64,000 bases of DNA from Sphingorhabdus sp. EL138. Lineage in GTDB: Bacteria; Pseudomonadota; Alphaproteobacteria; Sphingomonadales; Sphingomonadaceae. The stretch covers positions 62,001-126,000 of the forward strand of contig NZ_OGVD01000003.1 of NCBI RefSeq assembly GCF_900258045.1, given 5' to 3'. Under the pieces are notes generated by a model. The model had not been told where the DNA came from, did not search any database, and saw nothing but the letters and a program-made list of their open reading frames with translations. The stretch's first letter is position 1. Each line of letters starts with the position of its first letter. Below are positions 47,733 to 58,455 of the stretch, piece by piece. The position numbers and the translations under genes were made by a program.

Positions 47733-48818
47733 ATGATGATAATAACATTGGTCATAGTCGCAGCACTGTTCCTTGCCTTCGCAAATGGCGCAAATGACAA
47801 TTTTAAAGGCTTCGCAACCGTATGGGGTTCGGCAACGCTGGATTATCGCAAGGCGTTGATAATCGCGACACTTGCGGCGCTGGCTGGTAGCCTGCTTTCG
47901 ATATTACTTGCCCATGGTCTGGTAAAACAGTTTTCAGGCAAGGGTCTGGTCCCGGATGAAATTGTCGCCTTGCCTTCCTTTGCGCTTGCGGTAGCGAGCG
48001 GCGCGGCTGCGGCGGTGATGATTGCGACACGGGTGGGGCTACCAATTTCAACGACCCATGCGCTGGTTGGCGGCCTGATTGGTGCCGGACTTGCGAGCAG
48101 CGCAGGCGCGGTCGACGTTGGCAATTTGGGTTCGGCATTCATTCTGCCTTTGCTGGTCAGTCCGTTCGTTTCAGCGTTCATCGGTTATTTGGTTTATAGG
48201 TTTTTGCCAGAGAGAAACATCAATAAGGACTGTATTTGTGTGGTGAAAACAGCACCGCAAGCAACCGTTGACGGCACAATGAAACGCGCCCTGGCTATGC
48301 CCGCTGTTATCATCGACACGGATGAAGCATGCGCTGTTCACGGGTCTGAAGCTACTCGCGCTTCGGTCAGCAAGACACTCAATTCTGCCCATATCGCCTC
48401 AGCTGCAACGATCTGCTTTGCCCGCTCGGTCAACGACACGCCAAAGTTGGCGGGTTTGATGGTGGTGGTGAATGTTGGCAACACAAATTTGTCATTGATC
48501 GCGATTGCCATTGCCGTGGCCTTGGGCGGTTTATTGTTGTCACGCCGCGTTGCCGAAACGATGAGCCAAAAAATCACTACTCTGACCCCAACACAGGGAT
48601 TGACGGCCAATCTGACAACAGCTGCGCTCGTCCTTGCTGCAAGCTTCAAGAGCTTACCTGTATCCACCACCCACGTCAGTGTGGGTGCCATTACCGGCGT
48701 AGGTGCAGGTGCGCAGACATTGTCCGGTTCAACCGTGCGAACCATCCTGCTTTCATGGGTTGGCACATTACCGTTGGCAGGTGCGATCGCGTGGATCGTA
48801 ATGACACTTGCAGCATAG
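47733..48818 (+). CDS. PiT-family inorganic phosphate/anion permease
   Basis: A 361-residue membrane protein with about ten helices. The diagnostic motifs are FANGANDNFKGFATVWGS near the N-terminus and ARSVNDTPKLAGL in the second half, with the paired GLPISTTHALVGGLIGAG and LPVSTTHVSVGAITGVG repeats. PiT proteins move phosphate and can also move arsenate. Next to arsM and MTAP genes, arsenate or phosphate supply is the likely role, phosphate being consumed by phosphorolysis. AAAGGG lies before the ATG. Confidence 0.9.
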   Translation: MMIITLVIVAALFLAFANGANDNFKGFATVWGSATLDYRKALIIATLAALAGSLLSILLAHGLVKQFSGKGLVPDEIVALPSFALAVASGAAAAVMIATRVGLPISTTHALVGGLIGAGLASSAGAVDVGNLGSAFILPLLVSPFVSAFIGYLVYRFLPERNINKDCICVVKTAPQATVDGTMKRALAMPAVIIDTDEACAVHGSEATRASVSKTLNSAHIASAATICFARSVNDTPKLAGLMVVVNVGNTNLSLIAIAIAVALGGLLLSRRVAETMSQKITTLTPTQGLTANLTTAALVLAASFKSLPVSTTHVSVGAITGVGAGAQTLSGSTVRTILLSWVGTLPLAGAIAWIVMTLAA

Positions 48819-48873: not shown

Positions 48874-49743
48874 ATGAGTGAATGGACATTGGGCATTATC
48901 GGCGGATCAGGGTTGTATCAGCTGGATGCTCTGGAGGATGCCCGTTGGATATCGGTTGAAACACCTTGGGGAGCGCCGTCCGACGAACTGCTGACCGGGC
49001 ATATTGCCGGCGTAAAATGTGTATTTTTACCACGTCATGGGCGTGGACACAGTCTTGGACCGAGTCAGTTGAATTTTCGGGCCAATATCGATGCCATGAA
49101 ACGAGTGGGTGTGACGGATCTTGTTTCCATTTCGGCGGTTGGTTCACTCGCCGAAGATTTGGTTCCCGGACATTTTGCGGTGGTGGACCAGTTTATTGAC
49201 CGCACGTTCGCTCGGGAGAAAAGCTTCTTTGGTGACGGCCTTGTTGCTCATGTATCAATGGCTGATCCCGTCTGTCCGCGGCTATCTTCATATGCAGCTG
49301 GCGCTGCGCGAAAGGCCGGAGCAACCGTGCAGGATGGCGGCACCTATCTGGCGATGGAGGGACCGCAATTTTCGACCCGCGCCGAAAGCCATATGTATCG
49401 CGGCTGGGGTGCTCACGTCATTGGCATGACCGCTATGCCAGAGGCAAAATTGGCGCGGGAGGCGGAGCTCCCTTATGCGTTGATTGGCATGGTCACCGAT
49501 TATGACTGCTGGCGCGAAAATGAAGCTCCCGTTGAAGTGGAGGCCATTATTGCTCAGTTGAGCGACAATGCAGCAAGAGGCCGTGCGCTTGTTGAACACC
49601 TGGTGAGATCATTGCCAGAGAAACGAGAGGCAAGTCCGATTGATACGGTGCTCGACTATGCGTTGATTACAGACCCGTCGGTCCAAGATCCCGTGTTAAA
49701 GGCGAAACTGGATGCCGTGGCCGGACGGGTTTTAGCGATTTAA
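48874..49743 (+). CDS. mtnP: S-methyl-5'-thioadenosine phosphorylase (MTAP)
   Basis: A 289-residue nucleoside phosphorylase of the PNP/MTAP family. Landmarks are LGIIGGSGLYQLDALED, FLPRHGRGHSLGPSQLNFRANIDAMK (phosphate and sugar site), the catalytic region GGTYLAMEGPQFSTRAESHMYRGWGAHVIGMTAMPEA, and VTDYDCW, in which the Asp selects adenine over hypoxanthine. It cleaves 5'-substituted adenosines to adenine and a ribose-1-phosphate. In this cluster it may act on a 5'-deoxy-5'-arsenoadenosine made by the radical SAM enzyme, or clear 5'-deoxyadenosine. It ends four bases into the convergent radical SAM gene. Confidence 0.9.
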   Translation: MSEWTLGIIGGSGLYQLDALEDARWISVETPWGAPSDELLTGHIAGVKCVFLPRHGRGHSLGPSQLNFRANIDAMKRVGVTDLVSISAVGSLAEDLVPGHFAVVDQFIDRTFAREKSFFGDGLVAHVSMADPVCPRLSSYAAGAARKAGATVQDGGTYLAMEGPQFSTRAESHMYRGWGAHVIGMTAMPEAKLAREAELPYALIGMVTDYDCWRENEAPVEVEAIIAQLSDNAARGRALVEHLVRSLPEKREASPIDTVLDYALITDPSVQDPVLKAKLDAVAGRVLAI

Positions 49744-50699
49744 GCCGAGCAACTGGCACCGCCCAGAACACAAAACCGTGCACAATGCGGATGGTTTAGT
49801 GCTACGCTTTGGCTGGCTTCCTTCAACGTTCCGCCCATATCAAATTGTGGATCATAGGGCAGCAACGTACAGGCAGCGACGCGGGGAGTGGACTCTCCCT
49901 TGCGTTTCACAACCATGCGGCTGGATGCGCACATGATACTGGACGGATCGACATTCAGGATGCTCCAGCAAGCGTCCGTAATTTCGGCGATATCGGCCTG
50001 CGCATCCATTTCGGGAAACAGCATCAATTGCGAGGGGGCACCCACTTCGATGGCCCAGTTTCGATCGGCAAATAACGCGCGATATCCGGCACGTGCCTGT
50101 GTCTCGTTTTCTCCGGCTAAATGCCGTCCGGCAACCGAGATGTTGAATCCGTTCGCCGAAAGCCAATCAATTCCGTCCAGCGCTTTGTCCCAGCTATTGG
50201 GGCCACGCTCTGCCTCATGAATGGCTTTGGTGAAATGGTCCAGGCTGACCCGGAACGTCAAGCGGCTGCGGCCTTCCAATGCCAGCAAGTCGCTTTCAAA
50301 ACGCCGCATGGGCCGCATGGCATTGGTTAGCACCAGCACATCAAACCCGCGTGACAGGCAAAGACGCAATATCGCCATCATATCCTTGTTCATAAACGGC
50401 TCACCGCCGGTAAACGCGATTTCGCGTGTTGAGAGGTTCTCCGCCACAATCTCATCTAGAAACGCCTGGACCTCGGCCAGCGTGATATAGACCAACGCGT
50501 CATTGGTAGGGGAACTTTCGATATAGCAGTTTTCGCACGCCAGATTGCACAAGGTGCCGGTGTTGATCCACAAAGTATCAAGACCGGTCATGGCGACGCG
50601 CGCGCGCGTTTCACCCTTGGCGGTTAGATCCTGATCAAGGAATTTTTTCGGATCAAGTGGGGTTGCATTGATAACGGAAAATGGCGAAGTCTCTGACAT
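49740..50699 (-). CDS. Radical SAM enzyme of the arsenic cluster
   Basis: A 319-residue radical SAM protein. The [4Fe-4S] motif is CNLACENC (Cys 51, 55, 58), followed by AFTGGEPFMNKDM, the SAM-binding GGE motif. The C-terminus has a Cys cluster (Cys 306, 310, 317; HCARFCVLGG) plus others in IMCASS and AACTLLP, suggesting an auxiliary cluster. The N-terminal LDTLWINTGTLCNLACENCYI recalls the ArsS start, but the DUF3641-like C-terminus I associate with ArsS is not seen. A role in 5'-deoxyadenosylation of methylated arsenic is inferred from neighbours. It is divergent from arsM across a 108-base region with a palindrome. Confidence 0.85.
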   Translation of the reverse strand: MSETSPFSVINATPLDPKKFLDQDLTAKGETRARVAMTGLDTLWINTGTLCNLACENCYIESSPTNDALVYITLAEVQAFLDEIVAENLSTREIAFTGGEPFMNKDMMAILRLCLSRGFDVLVLTNAMRPMRRFESDLLALEGRSRLTFRVSLDHFTKAIHEAERGPNSWDKALDGIDWLSANGFNISVAGRHLAGENETQARAGYRALFADRNWAIEVGAPSQLMLFPEMDAQADIAEITDACWSILNVDPSSIMCASSRMVVKRKGESTPRVAACTLLPYDPQFDMGGTLKEASQSVALNHPHCARFCVLGGASCSA

Positions 50700-50729
50700 A
50701 TAGTCCTATTCGCGACATGTAGGCCATTC

Positions 50730-50751
50730 GTTACATGCAGTGGCATGTAAC
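50730..50751. promoter_or_regulatory. Perfect palindrome between radical SAM gene and arsM
   Basis: GTTACATG-N6-CATGTAAC is a perfect 8-bp dyad with a 6-base spacer, centred between the divergent genes and directly followed by a second TGTAAC. It has the form of an operator for a dimeric regulator. No ArsR gene is in the window, so the binding protein is unknown. Confidence 0.7.
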
Positions 50752-50807
50752 TGTAACCCCTTGGCTATTTTTCTCGAACCAGTGGTGTAAAATTGCGGAG
50801 CCACTGA

Positions 50808-51863
50808 ATGAATCTTGAAAATAGCCAAAAATATTATGGGGAAATCCTTGCCGGATCATCTGATCTGCTGACCGACGCTTGCACCATGGCCGATGCGCCA
50901 GATGCCCGCGTCAGAACGGCATTGGATAACGTGCATGAAGAAGTGAAGGGCCGTTACTATGGTTGCGGCCTTGTAACGCCGCAATTGATTGATGGAGCGC
51001 ACATACTCGATCTGGGTTCCGGATCCGGGCAAGACGCCTATCTGCTGGCGCAACTTGTCGGAGAAGACGGCGCCGTTGTGGGTGTCGATGCCACGCCCGC
51101 GCAGCTTGAAGTCGCCAATCGGCATATCGAATGGCACCGGGAACGCTTTGGCTATGCGCAAAGCAATGTCCGCTTTATCGAGGGTGATATTGAAAAGCTT
51201 GAAGAACTGGAACTGGAACCGAACAGTTTCGATATCATCGTCTCAAACTGTGTCATCAATCTGGTGGCGGACAAAGCTGCAGTTTTCCGAGCGGCGTTTA
51301 ACTTGTTGAAACCGGGCGGTGAGCTGTATTTTTCCGATGTCTATGCCGACCGCCGCGTCCCGGCGCATTTGTTGAATGATCCGGTCCTTCACGGCGAATG
51401 CCTTTCCGGTGCGCTTTATTGGGGCGATTTCATGGAGCAGGCGAAGAGCGCCGGCTTCGGCGACCCGCGTCTGGTAAAGGATCGTCCGCTTGGCATTGGT
51501 GACGCGAATATTGCCAAGATGCTGGATGGTATCAATTTCTACTCGGCAACCTATCGACTTTTCAAACTGGAGGAGTTGGAGCCCGAGTGCGAAGACTATG
51601 GCCAGGCCGTTATGTACAAAGGCGGCATAGAAGGACAGGAACGCCTGTTCGAGCTGGATAAGGGACACGCTATCGAGGTTGGCCGGGTGTTCCCCATTTG
51701 CGGCAATTCATGGCGCATGCTGGCGGACACACGCTTCGCGCCTTATTTCGATTTCATCGGTGATTTTTCTCGCCACTATGGTGTGTTTGAAGGGTGTGGC
51801 AGCGATATGCCCTATACGTCCGATACCAGCGGTGCAGAAGCCGAGTCAGCGTCTTGCTGTTGA
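50808..51863 (+). CDS. arsM: Arsenite S-adenosylmethionine methyltransferase
   Basis: A 351-residue methyltransferase. The SAM site is ILDLGSGSGQDAYLLAQLVG (residues 66-85). Cys 25, 53, 148 and 198 reproduce the spacing of the four conserved arsenic-site cysteines of CmArsM (28, then about 100, then 50 residues apart). FEGCGSDMPY and a terminal CC are further ArsM traits. It methylates As(III) stepwise to mono-, di- or trimethyl forms. It is followed after four bases by an SDR gene, and faces the radical SAM gene across the palindrome. This is the best-supported anchor for arsenic function in the cluster. Confidence 0.94.
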   Translation: MNLENSQKYYGEILAGSSDLLTDACTMADAPDARVRTALDNVHEEVKGRYYGCGLVTPQLIDGAHILDLGSGSGQDAYLLAQLVGEDGAVVGVDATPAQLEVANRHIEWHRERFGYAQSNVRFIEGDIEKLEELELEPNSFDIIVSNCVINLVADKAAVFRAAFNLLKPGGELYFSDVYADRRVPAHLLNDPVLHGECLSGALYWGDFMEQAKSAGFGDPRLVKDRPLGIGDANIAKMLDGINFYSATYRLFKLEELEPECEDYGQAVMYKGGIEGQERLFELDKGHAIEVGRVFPICGNSWRMLADTRFAPYFDFIGDFSRHYGVFEGCGSDMPYTSDTSGAEAESASCC

Positions 51864-51867
51864 AACC

Positions 51868-52938
51868 GTGAATATACTGCTCACAGGTGCAACAGGAACT
51901 ATCGGCGGTGAGCTTACTGCGCGGTTGCTTGCTGCTGGCCATGCGGTCGTCGCGTTGATCCGGAAAACCCGTGACATATATGCAAATGACGGGCGGTTGC
52001 TGCCAGCTGGTGATTTCGCAAATGTCATGCCCGACGCCGGTTGTGCGTCTAAACTGACCGGAGATGTGACGTTACGCGGCCTTGGTCTGGATGAGACCAC
52101 TATTGCTTTGCTCGGGCGTCAGATTGATCTGGTCATTCATTGTGCCGCAACGACCGATTTCAATGCCAGCGGAGCAGTGTATCGAAACGTCAATGTTCGC
52201 GGTGTCTTCAATGTTCTGGAGACGGTACCGAGAGCCCGCTTCCTTCATGTAAGCACAGCCTATGTTTGCGGCCTGAAAGACGGACGGATTGCCGAAGCGC
52301 CATGTGTAGCCGATCAGAGTTTCGCCAATGGTTATGAGCAATCAAAGGCAGCAGGAGAGGCTTTGGTGCTCGCTGCCGGAAGGCGCGCTGTCATTGCACG
52401 GCCCAGCATTGTTGTAGGCGCGCATGATGATGGCAGTTTTCATCACTTCGATAGCTTCTATCAGTTATTCCGGCTGATCGCCGAAGGTCATATTACGCGG
52501 TTGCCTGCAGCGCCCGAAGCGACGCTCGATTTTGTTCCCATTGACCATGTTGTGGGAGGGTTGACCGACATTGTCGGTCATTGGGACAAGGCAGAGGGAA
52601 AGATCATTCACCTGACGTCAGGGGCTGCTATCTCTCCCACCATGCTTGCGGAAGCCATAGGCCTGTTTGACCAGCTGGATCCGCCTAAATTCCTGGCTCC
52701 AGAGATGTTCGGTGTTCAAGGACTACCAGAATTGGAACGCCGTTTATACACACATGTTGCTGCGTTCTACGCCAGCTATTTTCAACGCTGCCCCGATTTC
52801 GGGACCGAAAACCTGCGCCGGATTAGTGGGCGGACCTGCCCCCCGGTTGATCTTGCAGCTTTGGAAAGAATGATCGAACATTGCATCAAAAGCAACTTTA
52901 TCCGCGATGTAAGGCCATCCAGCACGATGGCCCAATAA
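51868..52938 (+). CDS. Extended SDR (NAD-binding epimerase/thioester-reductase-like)
   Basis: A 356-residue Rossmann protein. It begins VNILLTGATGTIGGELTARLL with the extended-SDR TGxxGxxG motif; HVSTAYVCG and NGYEQSKAAGEALVL supply the Ser and YxxxK catalytic residues. The arrangement resembles the NAD_binding_4 group. In an arsenosugar-type pathway it could reduce or epimerise the sugar part. The GTG at 51868, four bases after the arsM stop, is preferred; the open frame extends back into arsM in another frame. Confidence 0.85.
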   Translation: MNILLTGATGTIGGELTARLLAAGHAVVALIRKTRDIYANDGRLLPAGDFANVMPDAGCASKLTGDVTLRGLGLDETTIALLGRQIDLVIHCAATTDFNASGAVYRNVNVRGVFNVLETVPRARFLHVSTAYVCGLKDGRIAEAPCVADQSFANGYEQSKAAGEALVLAAGRRAVIARPSIVVGAHDDGSFHHFDSFYQLFRLIAEGHITRLPAAPEATLDFVPIDHVVGGLTDIVGHWDKAEGKIIHLTSGAAISPTMLAEAIGLFDQLDPPKFLAPEMFGVQGLPELERRLYTHVAAFYASYFQRCPDFGTENLRRISGRTCPPVDLAALERMIEHCIKSNFIRDVRPSSTMAQ

Positions 52939-52946
52939 ACGCCGGA

Positions 52947-53675
52947 CTAGCGGATATCTGGATATTCATCGGCCAGCCGCTCACGAGCGCCCATAGCCCA
53001 CATCAATCCGACTTTCAGATATATCCAGTTGGCCCGCCAACGGCCCCATGCCGTGATCCGTCTGTCCGATGTCCAGACCCAGCGCGGTATCATCCGGATT
53101 TTGCCATAGCGCGACAGTTTGATGCAAAGATCGGCTTCTTCCATCACCGCCACCCGTTCATCGCAGCCACCAATGGCCAGAAACTGTTCTCGCCTGAAAA
53201 ACATCGCATGATCACCGAATAACAGTCGCACACCGCGAAGGAACAGATGCGGCCGAGTAATGAGTGGCGCATACCATGTCTTTATCCAATTATGCAGCGT
53301 CGAACCCCAGCGTGTTCCCCGCGGCCCGGCAATACGCGGTGTGAAGCTGGCCAGACCGGTTTTACCATCGGCCATGGCGGCGCGCATCACCGCCACGGCG
53401 TCCGCAGGCAGTATACTATCGGCATGAAGCACACAGACAATCTCGCCCTCCGCTTCATGCACTCCGAAATTAATTTGTGCGCCGCGACCTTTTTTGGGCG
53501 CTGCGATGACTTGCAGTCCCGCAGTCTGAGCGAGTGCTACAGATGTATCGGAACTGCCACCATCCACAATCAGAATCTCATCCGCCGGTGGATCCAGTGA
53601 TTTGACGCAATCCAAAGTGTTAGGCAATGCCCGCTCTTCATTAAGCATCGGGATTAGAATGGTAACCCGGTTCAT
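52947..53675 (-). CDS. Glycosyltransferase family 2, TIGR04283-type
   Basis: A 242-residue GT-A enzyme. It begins VTILIPMLNEERALPNTLDCVKSLDPPADEILIVDGGSSDTSV (in landmarks: IPMLNEE and VDGGSSD), then KGRGAQINFG and VLHADSILPADA with the DXD-equivalent, and FGDHAMFFRREQFLAIGG. GGSxDxT plus GRxxQxNxG is the TIGR04283 pattern, a group named for co-occurrence with arsenosugar genes. The ATG at 53675 overlaps the stop of the upstream gene (ATGA). It is convergent with the SDR gene. Confidence 0.88.
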   Translation of the reverse strand: MNRVTILIPMLNEERALPNTLDCVKSLDPPADEILIVDGGSSDTSVALAQTAGLQVIAAPKKGRGAQINFGVHEAEGEIVCVLHADSILPADAVAVMRAAMADGKTGLASFTPRIAGPRGTRWGSTLHNWIKTWYAPLITRPHLFLRGVRLLFGDHAMFFRREQFLAIGGCDERVAVMEEADLCIKLSRYGKIRMIPRWVWTSDRRITAWGRWRANWIYLKVGLMWAMGARERLADEYPDIR

Positions 53676-54256
53676 GGATTCAGCCATGGCCATCGCTCCA
53701 GATCCTCTGGCCGGTCGCAGTCATGTAATGTCTCCAATAACTCAAAGCCAATGTCATGCTGTCTCAAACGATCAAGCGTATCGGGCATAACATGTTCTGT
53801 GCTCCAGCGCATATTCTGGAATAGAAAAGGATAGGGTTTTGCTAAACCAATAAGATAGTAGCCGCCGTCATCTGCTGGTCCAATAACTACATCGGATTTT
53901 TGCAAAGCATTGATTGCCGCGTTCACATGGTGGGCGGATAGATCAGGTGTATCGGAGCCCAAGAATATGACCGGTGCGGGGTCCATCGCGGCCAACAGAC
54001 GGCTGGTCAGATCGCCTTCTACCTGCGGCACATAGGACAGGTCGCTACCCAACCATCTGGCAATGGTATTCGCATCGCCGCCGCTATACTGGATTTCAAT
54101 CGGCTGACTGATTTGCTTCAGTATCTCTACGGTCCGCTCGGTCAGCTGCATATGTACGGCGGCCGCCCCGTCTGCGCCCAATGCCGGGATCAGGCGTGTT
54201 TTTGCAGATCCCGGCACCGGATAGCGGGTGAAGAGCACTAACCGAACAGTGTTCAT
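53672..54256 (-). CDS. DUF2064 / TIGR04282-type glycosyltransferase-like protein
   Basis: A 194-residue nucleotidyl/glycosyltransferase-fold protein. LVLFTRYPVPGSAKTRLIPALGADGAA gives the pyrophosphorylase-like nucleotide loop, GSDTPDLSAHHV the metal site and GPADDGGYYLIGL the family signature. The family is often beside TIGR04283 proteins in arsenosugar clusters. It is translationally coupled to the GT2 gene by a four-base overlap and divergent from the small secreted protein at 54450. Confidence 0.88.
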   Translation of the reverse strand: MNTVRLVLFTRYPVPGSAKTRLIPALGADGAAAVHMQLTERTVEILKQISQPIEIQYSGGDANTIARWLGSDLSYVPQVEGDLTSRLLAAMDPAPVIFLGSDTPDLSAHHVNAAINALQKSDVVIGPADDGGYYLIGLAKPYPFLFQNMRWSTEHVMPDTLDRLRQHDIGFELLETLHDCDRPEDLERWPWLNP

Positions 54257-54343
54257 GAGCCGGTTCCAGCCAAAAAAAGCATGCTTTAATAGTCCTTATG
54301 ATGGCCGCTGAGTAGCAGATGGTTCGATTGAGACGGCTATTTC

Positions 54344-54381
54344 GTTACATAAATTGCAGTATTTTCAAACCGACCTGTAAC
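54344..54381. promoter_or_regulatory. Separated GTTACAT and CTGTAAC half-sites
   Basis: GTTACATA at 54344-54351 and CCTGTAAC at 54374-54381 point towards each other in the 193-base divergent region between the TIGR04282-type gene and the small secreted protein gene. They resemble the arms of the 50730 palindrome but with wider spacing. Confidence 0.35.
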
Positions 54382-54449
54382 AAAAAACCATTTTTCTCCG
54401 AAATTGTATTGAGGGTTCAAAACCCGGACCAAAAATTTAGGAGTATGAT

Positions 54450-54785
54450 ATGAAAATGCTGAGCTTATCTGTAGCAGCACTATCTGTGATGATCGCGGCA
54501 CCGGCGTTGGCGTCAGGCGGTGGTGGCGGTGGTGGCGGTTATAGTGGAGGCGGTTTTGGCGCGTCTCAACCACGTGACCCCCGCGCTGCAGCTTATAGTA
54601 AGGGCAAAAGAGCTTTCAAAAAGCGAATTACTTGCAAGAAGTGTGAGTATAAGGGCGGCTTTACCGATGGTAAAACGGCGCGTGAAGTTGCTGCCAGGGT
54701 GAAAGCTGGCGAATTTGATCTGAAGGCCAAACAGCGACAGGCCGTGCTCTACTATATGTCGGAACGCTATAGCATCGCGCCTTGA
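54450..54785 (+). CDS. Small secreted glycine-rich CxxC protein
   Basis: A 111-residue protein. A signal peptide (MKMLSLSVAALSVMIAAPALA) is followed by a glycine run (SGGGGGGGGYSGGGFG) and a basic region with one CxxC (ITCKKCEYKGGFTDGKTA). The C-terminal part (AREVAARVKAGEFDLKAKQRQAV) is predicted helical. The CxxC could bind As(III), zinc or copper, or be redox active. I know no named family. Its stop overlaps the TTG start of the next gene, so the two are coupled. AGGAG lies before the ATG. Confidence 0.75.
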   Translation: MKMLSLSVAALSVMIAAPALASGGGGGGGGYSGGGFGASQPRDPRAAAYSKGKRAFKKRITCKKCEYKGGFTDGKTAREVAARVKAGEFDLKAKQRQAVLYYMSERYSIAP

Positions 54786-56803
54786 TTCAACAATCATCTG
54801 TCGCCCGTCCCAACGGCGTGGTGACCGGCTTTTCCACAATATTGACAGTGGTAGCGGCAATTGCCGTTACCACTGGACTTCTGTTGTTGTCGCACAGTGA
54901 TGACGGCGCGGTCCTTCCCTATGTTGCGTTGCTAAGCCTTGGTAGCTTAACCGTATTCATTGGTATCTGGCGATCAACGGCACTGACGGCCAGAATGGTT
55001 TTTGGCGTTGCGCTGATTCTTCATGTTGTAGCGATTTTTGGCTTTGCGGCCTTTGAAGATGACTATTTCCGGTTTATTTGGGATGGCTGGCGACTGATAA
55101 TCTCCGGCTCTCCCTATGGTATCGCGCCTGCCGACTTTTTTGGAAAGTCGCTCCCCGACAACGGTCTTGCACTGACCTTGGACGGGGTAAATAATCCGCA
55201 TTTGCCGACAATTTATGGCCCGACGCTGCAATTCATATTCTCGCTTGCCTATCTGTTCGCCGGTACAGATCCGGCAGGGTTGCGGATATTTTTTGCGGTA
55301 ATCAACCTGATCCTGGTGTTTTTGCTGCTGCGATGGACCAGTCCTGAAAAGGCGGCCTTATATGCTTGGTGCCCTCTGGTACTGGCGGAAACAATCATCC
55401 ACATCCATCCCGATGGGATAATGGCGATGCTGTTGCTCGCGGGCATATTATTGGCGAAGCACTATCCGCTGTTGGCTGGTCTGTTCTTCGGACTTGCGGC
55501 CGGTGCCAAGATTGTGGCGCTCGCTCTTTGGCCCCTGCTTTTGCGCATGGGGTGGCGGGCCGTGGCATCCGCTATCGCAACACTGGCGCTTATCTATGGT
55601 ATTTTTCTGGTCCAGGGGCAGGGTGCCGGTTTCGATTCAACCGGCGTTTTTGCGGCGGACTGGTATTATAATCCCATGGGCTTTGCGTTGCTTGATGTGC
55701 TGTTGCCTTCATCAATAGCAAGGCTGAGCGCCGCATTGATCGGTATTGGCATCATCATGGTTCTGCATGCGCGTACGCGCAGTTTGGAAGTCGCGCCGAT
55801 AGCAATGATCTTCGGTGCCATATTGCTATTCGCACCGGCGGTGAATGCCTGGTATTTGTTGTGGATATTGCCGTTTGCGACAAAAAGCCGCATGGTCTGG
55901 CCTTTCGCGGCGGCGGTTGCATTGCCGCTTAGCTATCTGACAGGACTTAACCTTGAAAACCCGGCGTTGAGGGATTTCGAGGTGCACTGGATGGCTTGGG
56001 CGGCTCAGATCATCATATTGCTGGCCGCTGTCTGCTGGGATTATCGGCGTTTTCAAAGAGAAAAGAAAGCCAGTGATTCTGCAGAGGTTTTGTGCACACC
56101 AATAGCGCGGGCCCAAGTTGCGGTTATCATCCCGGCAATGAACGAGGAAAATTCTATCGGAGAGGTCGTTCGCGATATTGGATCGCAGAACTGGTCTGAG
56201 CCACCTTGCATCATTGTCGCCGATAATGGCTCTACGGACAGGACGGTCGAACAGGCCTTGGCCGCCGGAGCGATAATTGTACGCGAACCAAAGCGTGGCT
56301 ATGGCGCTGCATGTTTGGCAGGCATATCCGCCGCCCCACCAGCTACGAATATATTTCTGTTCATGGACGGTGATGGTGCAGATGTGCCGGAGGAAGGGCC
56401 TCCTTTGATTAAGCCGCTGACAGACGGCGCGGCTGATCTGGTCATCGGATCACGGGCACTGGGGCAGAAGCAGACCGGGGCCATGACCTTCCCGCAACAG
56501 TTTGGGAATTGGCTTGCGACCCAATTGGTTTGGCTGATTTGGGGCACGAGAATGACTGATCTCGGGCCATTTCGCGCTATTCGGGCTGATGTGCTTGATC
56601 GCCTGAATATGGCGGACAGGGATTTTGGCTGGACCGTTGAGATGCAGGTAAAAGCTGTACAACAGAATATGCGCATAACCGAACGCCCGGCCAATTACCG
56701 CCGCCGTGTCGGTATATCAAAAATATCCGGTACGGTCCGCGGCGTGCTGCTCGCAGGGAACAAGATATTATATGTGATCGGACGGGAAGCGTTCTTCCGT
56801 TAA
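54782..56803 (+). CDS. GT-C mannosyltransferase-like / GT2 fusion protein
   Basis: A 673-residue two-part protein. Residues 1 to about 425 contain ten or more membrane helices with FEDDYFRFIWDGWRLIISGSPYGIAP, the acidic loop-1 motif of GT-C (GT87/PMT-like) enzymes that use polyprenyl-phosphate sugars. Residues about 440-673 form a cytosolic GT2 domain of the dolichyl-phosphate-mannose-synthase type: VAVIIPAMNEENSIGEVVRDI, IIVADNGSTDRT, PKRGYGAACLAGI and FLFMDGDGADVPEE. A single polypeptide could thus make a lipid-linked sugar and use it. It starts at a TTG overlapping the previous stop and ends four bases into the convergent DUF547 gene. Confidence 0.85.
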   Translation: MIQQSSVARPNGVVTGFSTILTVVAAIAVTTGLLLLSHSDDGAVLPYVALLSLGSLTVFIGIWRSTALTARMVFGVALILHVVAIFGFAAFEDDYFRFIWDGWRLIISGSPYGIAPADFFGKSLPDNGLALTLDGVNNPHLPTIYGPTLQFIFSLAYLFAGTDPAGLRIFFAVINLILVFLLLRWTSPEKAALYAWCPLVLAETIIHIHPDGIMAMLLLAGILLAKHYPLLAGLFFGLAAGAKIVALALWPLLLRMGWRAVASAIATLALIYGIFLVQGQGAGFDSTGVFAADWYYNPMGFALLDVLLPSSIARLSAALIGIGIIMVLHARTRSLEVAPIAMIFGAILLFAPAVNAWYLLWILPFATKSRMVWPFAAAVALPLSYLTGLNLENPALRDFEVHWMAWAAQIIILLAAVCWDYRRFQREKKASDSAEVLCTPIARAQVAVIIPAMNEENSIGEVVRDIGSQNWSEPPCIIVADNGSTDRTVEQALAAGAIIVREPKRGYGAACLAGISAAPPATNIFLFMDGDGADVPEEGPPLIKPLTDGAADLVIGSRALGQKQTGAMTFPQQFGNWLATQLVWLIWGTRMTDLGPFRAIRADVLDRLNMADRDFGWTVEMQVKAVQQNMRITERPANYRRRVGISKISGTVRGVLLAGNKILYVIGREAFFR

Positions 56804-57750
56804 GCTTGGGCTGCTTTCGCGCGCCGCCGCCGGATGAAAAATATGATCCCGCCAACTAGCACCAACAGAACGCCGCCAGCTGCAACGCCGAGAATGGGGT
56901 TTGACCTTATGAGCCATAGGGGCGAGATAAAGTTGGAGTTCTCGGCCGAACCCGGTCCTTTGCTGTCATTGAGCCGCCAGTCATATTCCAGAAATGTGAT
57001 TTCCATATCACCGCTATCGAGCGCTTCAATGTCGTCAGCAGACAGACCAAGACTGTCTGCATAGAGCGCGAAAAATTCGTCCAGCGTTTCAGCGCCGCGC
57101 CAACCCTGTTCAAAATCATCGCCATACCAGTTGAAGATGCTCGACACGGCGAGATTTCCGTCCTCAAGCCGGTTGCGGGTGCGGTCGCTCAAGAACCCCT
57201 TGGTCATCATATCCAATTGCTGGTCCAGCTTGCTGCCAACAAAGGCTTCGTTGAGCAAGGCCGGGCAACCAATGCTTGCACAGTTCACACCAAAATGGAT
57301 GCGTGGGTCATTATATAGTCCGCTGCCGCGGATAATATCATGCTCGATGTTATCCAGAGATAATGTCTCTCCCAAAAGCGGAATAAAGGCCATTTGCCAT
57401 GGTGACTCGGTCAACGATCCCAGCTCCTTGATCGACACCAGATCGGGATATTGGGTGAGAATTAGCTCAACCGTCCAAGCGTTATAGGCATTGATCAAAA
57501 ACGCGAGCTGATGCGGTTTCGACCAGCCATCAAACTCCTCGCGGCTGACTTTTGCCATCGCATCCAGATAGGATTTCAGAGCAGCGCGATCCTCTTCAAA
57601 CTTCGCATAGTTTACGGTTGAGGAACTGCCATCGGGCACCATCTCGACATTATCGGTCAAAAGAGCATCCCAGCTGGAATGGTCAAAATCTGCCGCCTGT
57701 ACGGGTGCAGATGCCAGAAGTGACAATATGGCGATATAACGATGTTTCAT
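56800..57750 (-). CDS. DUF547 protein with C-terminal membrane anchor
   Basis: A 316-residue protein. The signal peptide ends in APVQAAD. The DUF547 core carries FLINAYNAWTVELILTQYP, then LSLDNIEHDIIRGSGLYNDPRIHFGVNCASIGCPALLNEAF, the family hallmark with conserved Asn, His and Cys. The end is a hydrophobic helix (ILGVAAGGVLLVLVGGIIFF) and RRRR, so it is a type I membrane protein or carries a sorting-type tail. DUF547 proteins frequently accompany arsenosugar-type genes, but their chemistry is unknown. The ATG at 57750 starts the signal peptide. Confidence 0.88.
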   Translation of the reverse strand: MKHRYIAILSLLASAPVQAADFDHSSWDALLTDNVEMVPDGSSSTVNYAKFEEDRAALKSYLDAMAKVSREEFDGWSKPHQLAFLINAYNAWTVELILTQYPDLVSIKELGSLTESPWQMAFIPLLGETLSLDNIEHDIIRGSGLYNDPRIHFGVNCASIGCPALLNEAFVGSKLDQQLDMMTKGFLSDRTRNRLEDGNLAVSSIFNWYGDDFEQGWRGAETLDEFFALYADSLGLSADDIEALDSGDMEITFLEYDWRLNDSKGPGSAENSNFISPLWLIRSNPILGVAAGGVLLVLVGGIIFFIRRRRAKAAQA

Positions 57751-57873
57751 GTCGAACCTTGCAGAATGAATATGTGGTCTGTCCCTAGTGTATGACCAAT
57801 ATTCGTCCCAAAACCGACAAGCGTTACAAGGCAGCAAAAAATGACCAGATGCGAATATGCCCGCCGTGCTTAT

Positions 57874-58455
57874 TCATTTTGTGTCAACGATATAAACAGC
57901 CTGCTGATAGAATTTTGCCAATCTATGGATTTCGCTGTGACGAAGGGTGAAGCCCATCCGATCAAAAGTTTCCAGCCATTCGTCATGTGACCTGTTGCTA
58001 TGGGGATGACCAATAAATTCCATGTTGGTAATCTTGTCAGTCAGCTTGGTGTAAGCGGCCTGAAATGGAGTGTCATAGACATCTTCCACAATGATCAATC
58101 TTTTTGACACGCGCGCAGCTTCCTGCAGGATTTTGTCAGGGTTAGCTATATGGTGCAACACGGTAAGGAGCAACGCGGCGTCAAATGATTGGTCTGCGAA
58201 TGGCATGGTATCGCCATCATATATTGTGGGTTTCAGGTCTTCAGAGATGCTATTGTCCGCGATATCCAGTGCCATCACGCACAGTCCGTGTTCGCGGAAA
58301 ACCTTTACAACGCTACCCGGACCAGAACCAACTTCCAGCAGATGGTCTCCACGCTCTATCCAGTCTTTTGTGAGCCTGTACTTTCTCTGAGCATCCATTT
58401 TCCAAATAGTGAATACGGCCGGGCCCAGAAGAGGAGTTTTCCAAAAAAGCTGCAT
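57874..58455 (-). CDS. Class I SAM-dependent methyltransferase
   Basis: A 193-residue methyltransferase. Motif I is LLEVGSGPGSVVKVF, motif II-like MALDIADNS, and the post-I region DGDTMPFADQSFDAALLLTVLHHI is the Methyltransf_11 pattern. The substrate is unknown; it lacks the Cys set of ArsM. It is oriented with the DUF547 gene and lies 123 bases from it, so it is probably the last member of the arsenic cluster. Confidence 0.85.
   Translation of the reverse strand: MQLFWKTPLLGPAVFTIWKMDAQRKYRLTKDWIERGDHLLEVGSGPGSVVKVFREHGLCVMALDIADNSISEDLKPTIYDGDTMPFADQSFDAALLLTVLHHIANPDKILQEAARVSKRLIIVEDVYDTPFQAAYTKLTDKITNMEFIGHPHSNRSHDEWLETFDRMGFTLRHSEIHRLAKFYQQAVYIVDTK

Follow-up and report, generated by a model that had tools for sequence, protein, structure and literature searches.

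Can a radical S-adenosylmethionine (SAM) enzyme other than ArsS adenosylate arsenic on the way to an arsenosugar? The question arises from a gene cluster of Sphingorhabdus sp. EL138, located in a stretch of 64,000 nucleotides of contig NZ_OGVD01000003.1 (positions 62,001 to 126,000; here called the window). In this cluster, a radical SAM gene encoding 319 amino acids (49740..50699, minus strand) is divergent from a gene for an ArsM-type arsenite methyltransferase (50808..51863, plus strand), with a gap of 108 bases to the arsM start. Among marine organoarsenicals, arsenosugars are a major group. ArsS takes a dimethylarsenical as its substrate and adenosylates it; to our knowledge, ArsS is the only enzyme known to form the C5′-As bond of arsenosugars. 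A reading made from the letters of the window (the sequence-only reading) had placed an arsenosugar-type cluster with a possibly non-ArsS radical SAM enzyme at 49740-58455. This proposal holds in that curated models do not class the radical SAM protein as ArsS and that ArsS does not co-occur with its family in the sampled genomes, and the interpretation as a whole is partly supported. We consider it fairly probable that the locus serves the synthesis of an arsenosugar, perhaps an arsenosugar lipid, and that an unnamed radical SAM family here takes over the part of ArsS, with the window protein as the putative arsenic adenosyltransferase. In the open-access literature, judged by titles and the beginnings of abstracts, we found no non-ArsS radical SAM enzyme for arsenosugars, which does not show its absence from print.

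The protein belongs to the radical SAM superfamily (PF04055, 68.8 bits versus 29.5), and a Pfam search added a weaker Fer4_12 match to the radical SAM domain. The CxxxCxxC motif that the sequence-only reading had pointed out on the strand opposite arsM consists of C51, C55, and C58, which are kept in 29/29 aligned relatives; the six C-terminal cysteines (C244, C257, C277, C306, C310, and C317) are likewise invariant in this alignment. Our alignments covered 29 of 59 proteins of the new family (A1), 18 of 20 ArsS proteins (A2), and the window protein with 52 of 80 named loci (A3). Among the 25 of 58 NCBIfam matches listed, no curated cut-off was reached. The top score in this set was to NF049973, the Rv1681 family (102.7 bits of a cut-off of 380, residues 42-198 only), against which three relatives scored 91 to 109 bits. 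The profile comparison with ArsS and DUF3641 that the sequence-only reading had suggested gave 58.4 bits of a cut-off of 300 for TIGR04167 (ArsS), over residues 38-188 only, and no match to DUF3641 (PF12345) at 0.01. In the whole genome there was no match to TIGR04167 at 1e-50 and none to DUF3641 at 0.001, a search that was positive in 2/14 control genomes. The TIGR04167 score and the genome search together rule out a full-length ArsS as the identity of the protein. Its AlphaFold2 model had a mean pLDDT (predicted local distance difference test score) of 91.2, and SPASM/twitch enzymes were among the fold matches. With these fold matches and the conserved C-terminal cysteines, an auxiliary-cluster domain of the SPASM/twitch type is possible. 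By sequence, relatives of known structure were, for the new family and ArsS alike, other radical SAM enzymes, none of them named ArsS. On sequence criteria, the window enzyme is a member of an unnamed, mainly alphaproteobacterial family distinct from ArsS.

The family keeps consistent company. Across 196 genomes of the order, the radical SAM protein was found in 64 (E ≤ 1e-30), ArsM in 40 (1e-40), the TIGR04282 glycosyltransferase in 68 (1e-20), the TIGR04283 glycosyltransferase in 68 (1e-30), and ArsS in none (1e-50). The 64 carriers included 62 with TIGR04282, 62 with TIGR04283, and 37 with ArsM (Fisher P of ∼2e-41 for each transferase and ∼4e-19 for ArsM, with relatedness ignored). Two carriers had neither transferase (G040, 64% complete, and G089, 90% complete). 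Six genomes free of the radical SAM protein had TIGR04282 (G013, G031, G032, G051, G095, and G182), and six had TIGR04283 (the same set with G072 instead of G095). ArsM occurred without it in G182, where a 7.9-kb contig ends beside the cluster (L137), in G095 (74% complete), and in G104 (69% complete). At the level of the phylum (299 genomes), ArsS was present in 114 (1e-40) and the new family in 22 (1e-20), with both in none (hypergeometric probability of 1.6e-5, phylogeny ignored). TIGR04283 was found in 21 of these 22 genomes (19/20 in one search, plus G019 and G050; G202 lacks it), in 8/8 ArsS genomes, and in 1/5 same-class genomes that lack both enzymes. As the new family shares the company of ArsS and was never found with it, it most likely performs the ArsS step.

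Gene neighborhoods gave a similar picture. Counts refer to fetched stretches, mostly within 10 kb and some of them shorter than 20 kb, and the picking of open reading frames can miss genes: ArsM of two loci (L041 and L042) was found by tblastn only. At the 16 loci of the window's family (window included), both transferases lay within ∼10 kb of the radical SAM gene at 14, an extended short-chain dehydrogenase/reductase (SDR) at 14, S-methyl-5′-thioadenosine phosphorylase (MTAP) at 8, and ArsM at 10 (8 by reading frame picking). In the main clade (39 loci, window included), we counted TIGR04283, TIGR04282, and SDR at 14 loci each and a flavin adenine dinucleotide (FAD) oxidoreductase at 11, and by reading frame picking ArsM and MTAP at 8 each and GT-C and DUF547 at 3 each. 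A divergent clade (20 loci) had the FAD oxidoreductase at 17, TIGR04282 at 15, TIGR04283 at 13, ArsM and a VTT protein at 11 each, a sigma factor at 10, MTAP at 9, and GT-C and DUF547 at 4 each. The 20 ArsS loci had the FAD oxidoreductase at 11, TIGR04282 at 6, TIGR04283 and ArsM at 5 each, MTAP, VTT, and DUF547 at 2 each, and the sigma factor at 1. ArsM, both transferases, the FAD oxidoreductase, the VTT protein, DUF547, and MTAP are thus common to loci of both enzymes, and the transferases, MTAP, and oxidoreductase shared with ArsS loci argue for the same intermediate.

We infer the reactions, metal content, and product of the window cluster from gene content, conservation, co-occurrence, exclusion of ArsS, and cysteine layout. 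Arsenite would be methylated by ArsM to a dimethylarsenical. The radical SAM enzyme would hold a SAM-binding [4Fe-4S] cluster and a probable auxiliary cluster on its C-terminal cysteines, cleave SAM, and join the 5′-deoxyadenosyl radical to the (methylated) arsenic. Adenine might then be removed by a phosphorylase, for which the neighboring MTAP is a candidate, and the glycoside would be built by the TIGR04282 and TIGR04283 transferases, perhaps also with the SDR and a GT-C/GT2 fusion, the latter as a putative late or lipid-linked glycosylation step. In PMC12159101, a radical SAM enzyme is described as adenosylating arsenic in oxo-arsenosugar synthesis, and according to PMC8552651, ArsS acts together with ArsM in Synechocystis.

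The cluster described by the sequence-only reading is real: all the genes that it named are present in the window. Downstream of arsM on the plus strand lies the SDR (51877..52938), of thioester-reductase/male-sterility type (PF07993, 138 bits), the start of which is uncertain, with an open frame from 51679. On the minus strand, the TIGR04283-like “arsenosugar biosynthesis” glycosyltransferase (52947..53693) narrowly misses its cut-off (174.5 bits versus 182, over positions 2-218 of 221), and the TIGR04282 “arsenosugar biosynthesis” glycosyltransferase (DUF2064; 53672..54256) clears its own (188.4 bits versus 134). A small secreted CxxC protein follows on the plus strand (54450..54785); it had no NCBIfam or Pfam match at 0.01, has homologues at loci L031 and L033, and is an accessory at most. 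The GT-C/GT2 fusion (54821..56803, plus strand; PF00535, 74.8 bits) also has an uncertain start, with an open frame from 54782; two divergent-clade loci (L052 and L054) have GT-C and GT2 as two separate tblastn matches. The DUF547 protein (56800..57837, minus strand; PF04784, 83.3 bits) is an accessory also found at ArsS loci, and a methyltransferase (57874-58455), inside the noted span, was not counted among the cluster parts. A fatty-acid-hydroxylase-type protein (PF04116; 46158-47105 in the window) adjoins the cluster at 5/16 loci of the window's family, the window included (the others are L033, L038, L042, and L044), hinting at a lipid end product.

MTAP (48874..49743, plus strand; NF006492, 453 bits, above the cut-off of 437) is convergent with the radical SAM gene, with a 4-bp overlap. 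As MTAP occurs in 147/196 genomes of the order and this copy is the only TIGR01694 match in its genome, it need not be pathway specific, and its value as a pathway marker is weakened; the enzyme might additionally split adenine off the adenosylated arsenical, or else serve in plain methylthioadenosine salvage. The PiT/PHO4 phosphate transporter (47733..48818, plus strand; PF01384), a possible route of arsenate entry, is loosely associated; among 40 loci searched, it was also found at L056, L059, L061, and L065. On this evidence, neither MTAP nor PiT is pathway specific, and PiT and the rhodanese (PF00581) both lie outside 49740-58455.

Several observations weigh against the ArsS-like role. The nearest curated model of the radical SAM protein is that of the Rv1681 family, not ArsS, and a shared radical SAM core by itself gives high profile scores. 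The window ArsM falls below every curated arsenite methyltransferase cut-off (NF008823, 155.9 bits of 263; NF040538, 143.3 of 500; NF038099, the arsenosugar ArsM, 96.1 of 400). We assign it on its best-scoring families, its neighbors, and the four cysteines noted in the sequence-only reading; C25, C53, C148, and C198, which we take to be the defining cysteines of ArsM, are invariant in 30/30 aligned proteins. The “arsenosugar” role of TIGR04282 and TIGR04283 rests on family names, and ArsS and the new family are divided by phylogeny, which inflates their non-overlap. At 24/39 main-clade loci, no marker gene was found on the fetched stretch, and this holds for all 23 main-clade loci of this set outside the window's family, where both transferases were found elsewhere in the genome when searched for.

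The most direct objection is the absence of ArsM from many carriers: 27/64 in the order lack it at 1e-40, and when 24 of these 27 were searched again (NF008823, 1e-25), 15 gave no match and 9 gave a weak partial match. All 11 members of the window's family in this sample are among the 15, and each of them carries both transferases. Among 18 further carriers in the phylum, ArsM was clear in 8 and absent in 10 (NF008823). The 46 genomes of this NF008823 search are no random sample, as 24 of them were picked because ArsM had not been found in them before. ArsM-less carriers favor the view that the radical SAM enzyme and the two transferases make an arsenic-free glycosylated small molecule or cofactor, with ArsM an occasional lodger. 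The same holds for several main-clade loci outside the window's family where the radical SAM gene is remote from ArsM and has metZ-apaG-folE or zwf-pgl-pgi as its neighbors. We regard an arsenic-free product as unlikely, however, because the radical SAM protein is present in 37/40 genomes of the order that carry ArsM and two distant clades of the family both adjoin ArsM. ArsM was also found wanting among 37 ArsS genomes chosen for high completeness (clear in 24, weak partial in 7, none in 6). Absence of ArsM is therefore not unique to the new family, although it is commoner there, and the ArsM-less genomes on both sides led us to reject ArsM as an obligate partner.

ArsM-less clusters would require no methylation if the enzyme formed another C-As bond, for example by 3-amino-3-carboxypropyl transfer as in ArsL, or adenosylated arsenite directly, giving a different organoarsenical. 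ArsL (PMC8552651) shows that a second radical SAM enzyme acting on arsenic has a precedent. ArsS loci, however, likewise have glycosyltransferases, MTAP, and the oxidoreductase, and no ArsL family name appears among the 25 of 58 NCBIfam matches listed, so that we hold this other chemistry to be quite improbable. A chance adjacency of arsM, an unrelated radical SAM gene, and general glycosyltransferases would fit the commonness of MTAP and the main-clade loci bare of markers, but it is hard to reconcile with the co-occurrence with each transferase, relatedness uncorrected, or with an association that holds in two deep clades, and we give it very little credence.

If the new family does take the place of ArsS, do ArsM-less clusters then work on scavenged methylarsenicals or on another substrate? 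Five of them (L036, L037, L039, L040, and L044, in genomes G177, G118, G105, G050, and G129) keep the radical SAM gene, the SDR, and both transferases, an FAD oxidoreductase was seen in 3/5, and L036 retains the genes flanking the ArsM slot. Six more ArsM-less genomes of the window's family (G124, G137, G139, G142, G160, and G187) have the radical SAM gene and both transferases. Separately, we observed ArsM-like open frames, mostly of ∼380-400 amino acids, with a partial NF008823 match (e.g., G015:C1:1141463-1142224, G021:C1:2062924-2063643, and G201:C1:1722582-1722854). Seven radical SAM genomes have the match in two pieces, and a single piece was seen in 2 further radical SAM genomes and in 7 with ArsS; such a frame is possibly an unnamed ArsM variant.

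A scan of species genomes gave 572 related stretches at tblastn E ≤ 1e-3; some of these may encode other radical SAM proteins. Of the 572, the best 80 were 56 to 68% identical and mostly alphaproteobacterial by title; TIGR04283 was on the fetched stretch in 32, TIGR04282 in 29, and ArsM in 9, among them Reyranella and Caulobacter records outside the window's family. Named carriers are, among others, Blastomonas marina (L228), whose cluster has ArsM, Qipengyuania aquimaris (L197), in which no ArsM was found, and Amylibacter kogurei (L227). The closest named proteins in this set (68% identity) came from Erythrobacter and Sphingomonas metagenome-assembled genomes (MAGs). Nitrococcus mobilis, a gammaproteobacterium, has the gene with an FAD oxidoreductase nearby (L223 and L231) within an alphaproteobacterial part of the tree, suggesting lateral transfer. 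An Enemella evansiae record (L243) falls among rhodobacterial sequences with their gene order, and a Klebsiella pneumoniae MAG (L208) groups with a betaproteobacterial MAG; these misfitting labels likely reflect contamination or misbinning. In a viral collection, one relative (L263, 59% identity) lies beside an integrase-like open frame, as read from its translation, and has the appearance of host DNA bordering a prophage; an ArsS scan of this collection gave four matches, all partial.

We tentatively put forward, as a possibility that we would not yet call likely, that a second, deeply separate arsenic-adenosylating radical SAM family exists in many Alphaproteobacteria and that its ArsM-less members (e.g., Qipengyuania aquimaris) use a scavenged methylarsenical or unmethylated arsenite. 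If so, different organisms could share the steps of arsenosugar synthesis, or its products could be organoarsenicals not yet known. The predicted producers would extend to many Alphaproteobacteria that surveys for ArsS only would miss, and the two families would offer an analogous enzyme pair in which the radical formation of C-As bonds can be studied. What ArsM-less carriers do would also become testable.

Among known enzymes, the Rv1681 family resembles the window protein in the radical SAM core only, and a literature search on that family found nothing. BlsE and SPASM/twitch radical SAM enzymes show 21% identity and belong to another pathway. ArsL of arsinothricin synthesis (arsQML) is likewise a radical SAM enzyme that accompanies ArsM, and it forms a C-As bond (PMC8552651). 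Compared by description only, its gene set differs, and it has only three conserved cysteines (PMC8552651) versus nine in the new family.

The closest comparison is with ArsS. The 18 aligned ArsS proteins share C32, C36, C39, MC(250), C265, HC(304), C307, and C315; like the new family, they combine a radical SAM N-terminus with an MC, a C, and then a C-terminal H-C-C-G-SC cysteine pattern. The new family differs in having GGEP where ArsS has GGAPE, an additional C244, and differently spaced last cysteines. Local identity is 22 to 28% for the 11/20 ArsS proteins that BLAST matched. A tree of 157 proteins, from which two short open frames of the new family were omitted, sets the 20 ArsS proteins off by one long branch (support of 100); its length is ∼10 changes per column (6.05 and 3.95 as drawn). 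The sequence-only reading had described the tail as unlike that of ArsS, and DUF3641 is indeed missing. The claim does not stand in full, as a profile-profile alignment with ArsS (274 columns, probability of 99%) reaches the last cysteines, and the tail by itself scored 23.9 against 12.4 ± 2.5 (maximum of 21.5) in 200 column shuffles, but the hit probability, over 17 columns, was only 16%. Homology judged from the tail by itself is no more than suggestive. As ArsS was the sole radical SAM family compared and no other was run as a control, the likeness is not proven to be specific to ArsS. The two families look like very distant homologues with a related C-terminal cysteine layout, and given this ArsS-like tail alignment, the window enzyme seems less an unrelated protein than a very remote relative of ArsS that takes the ArsS position.

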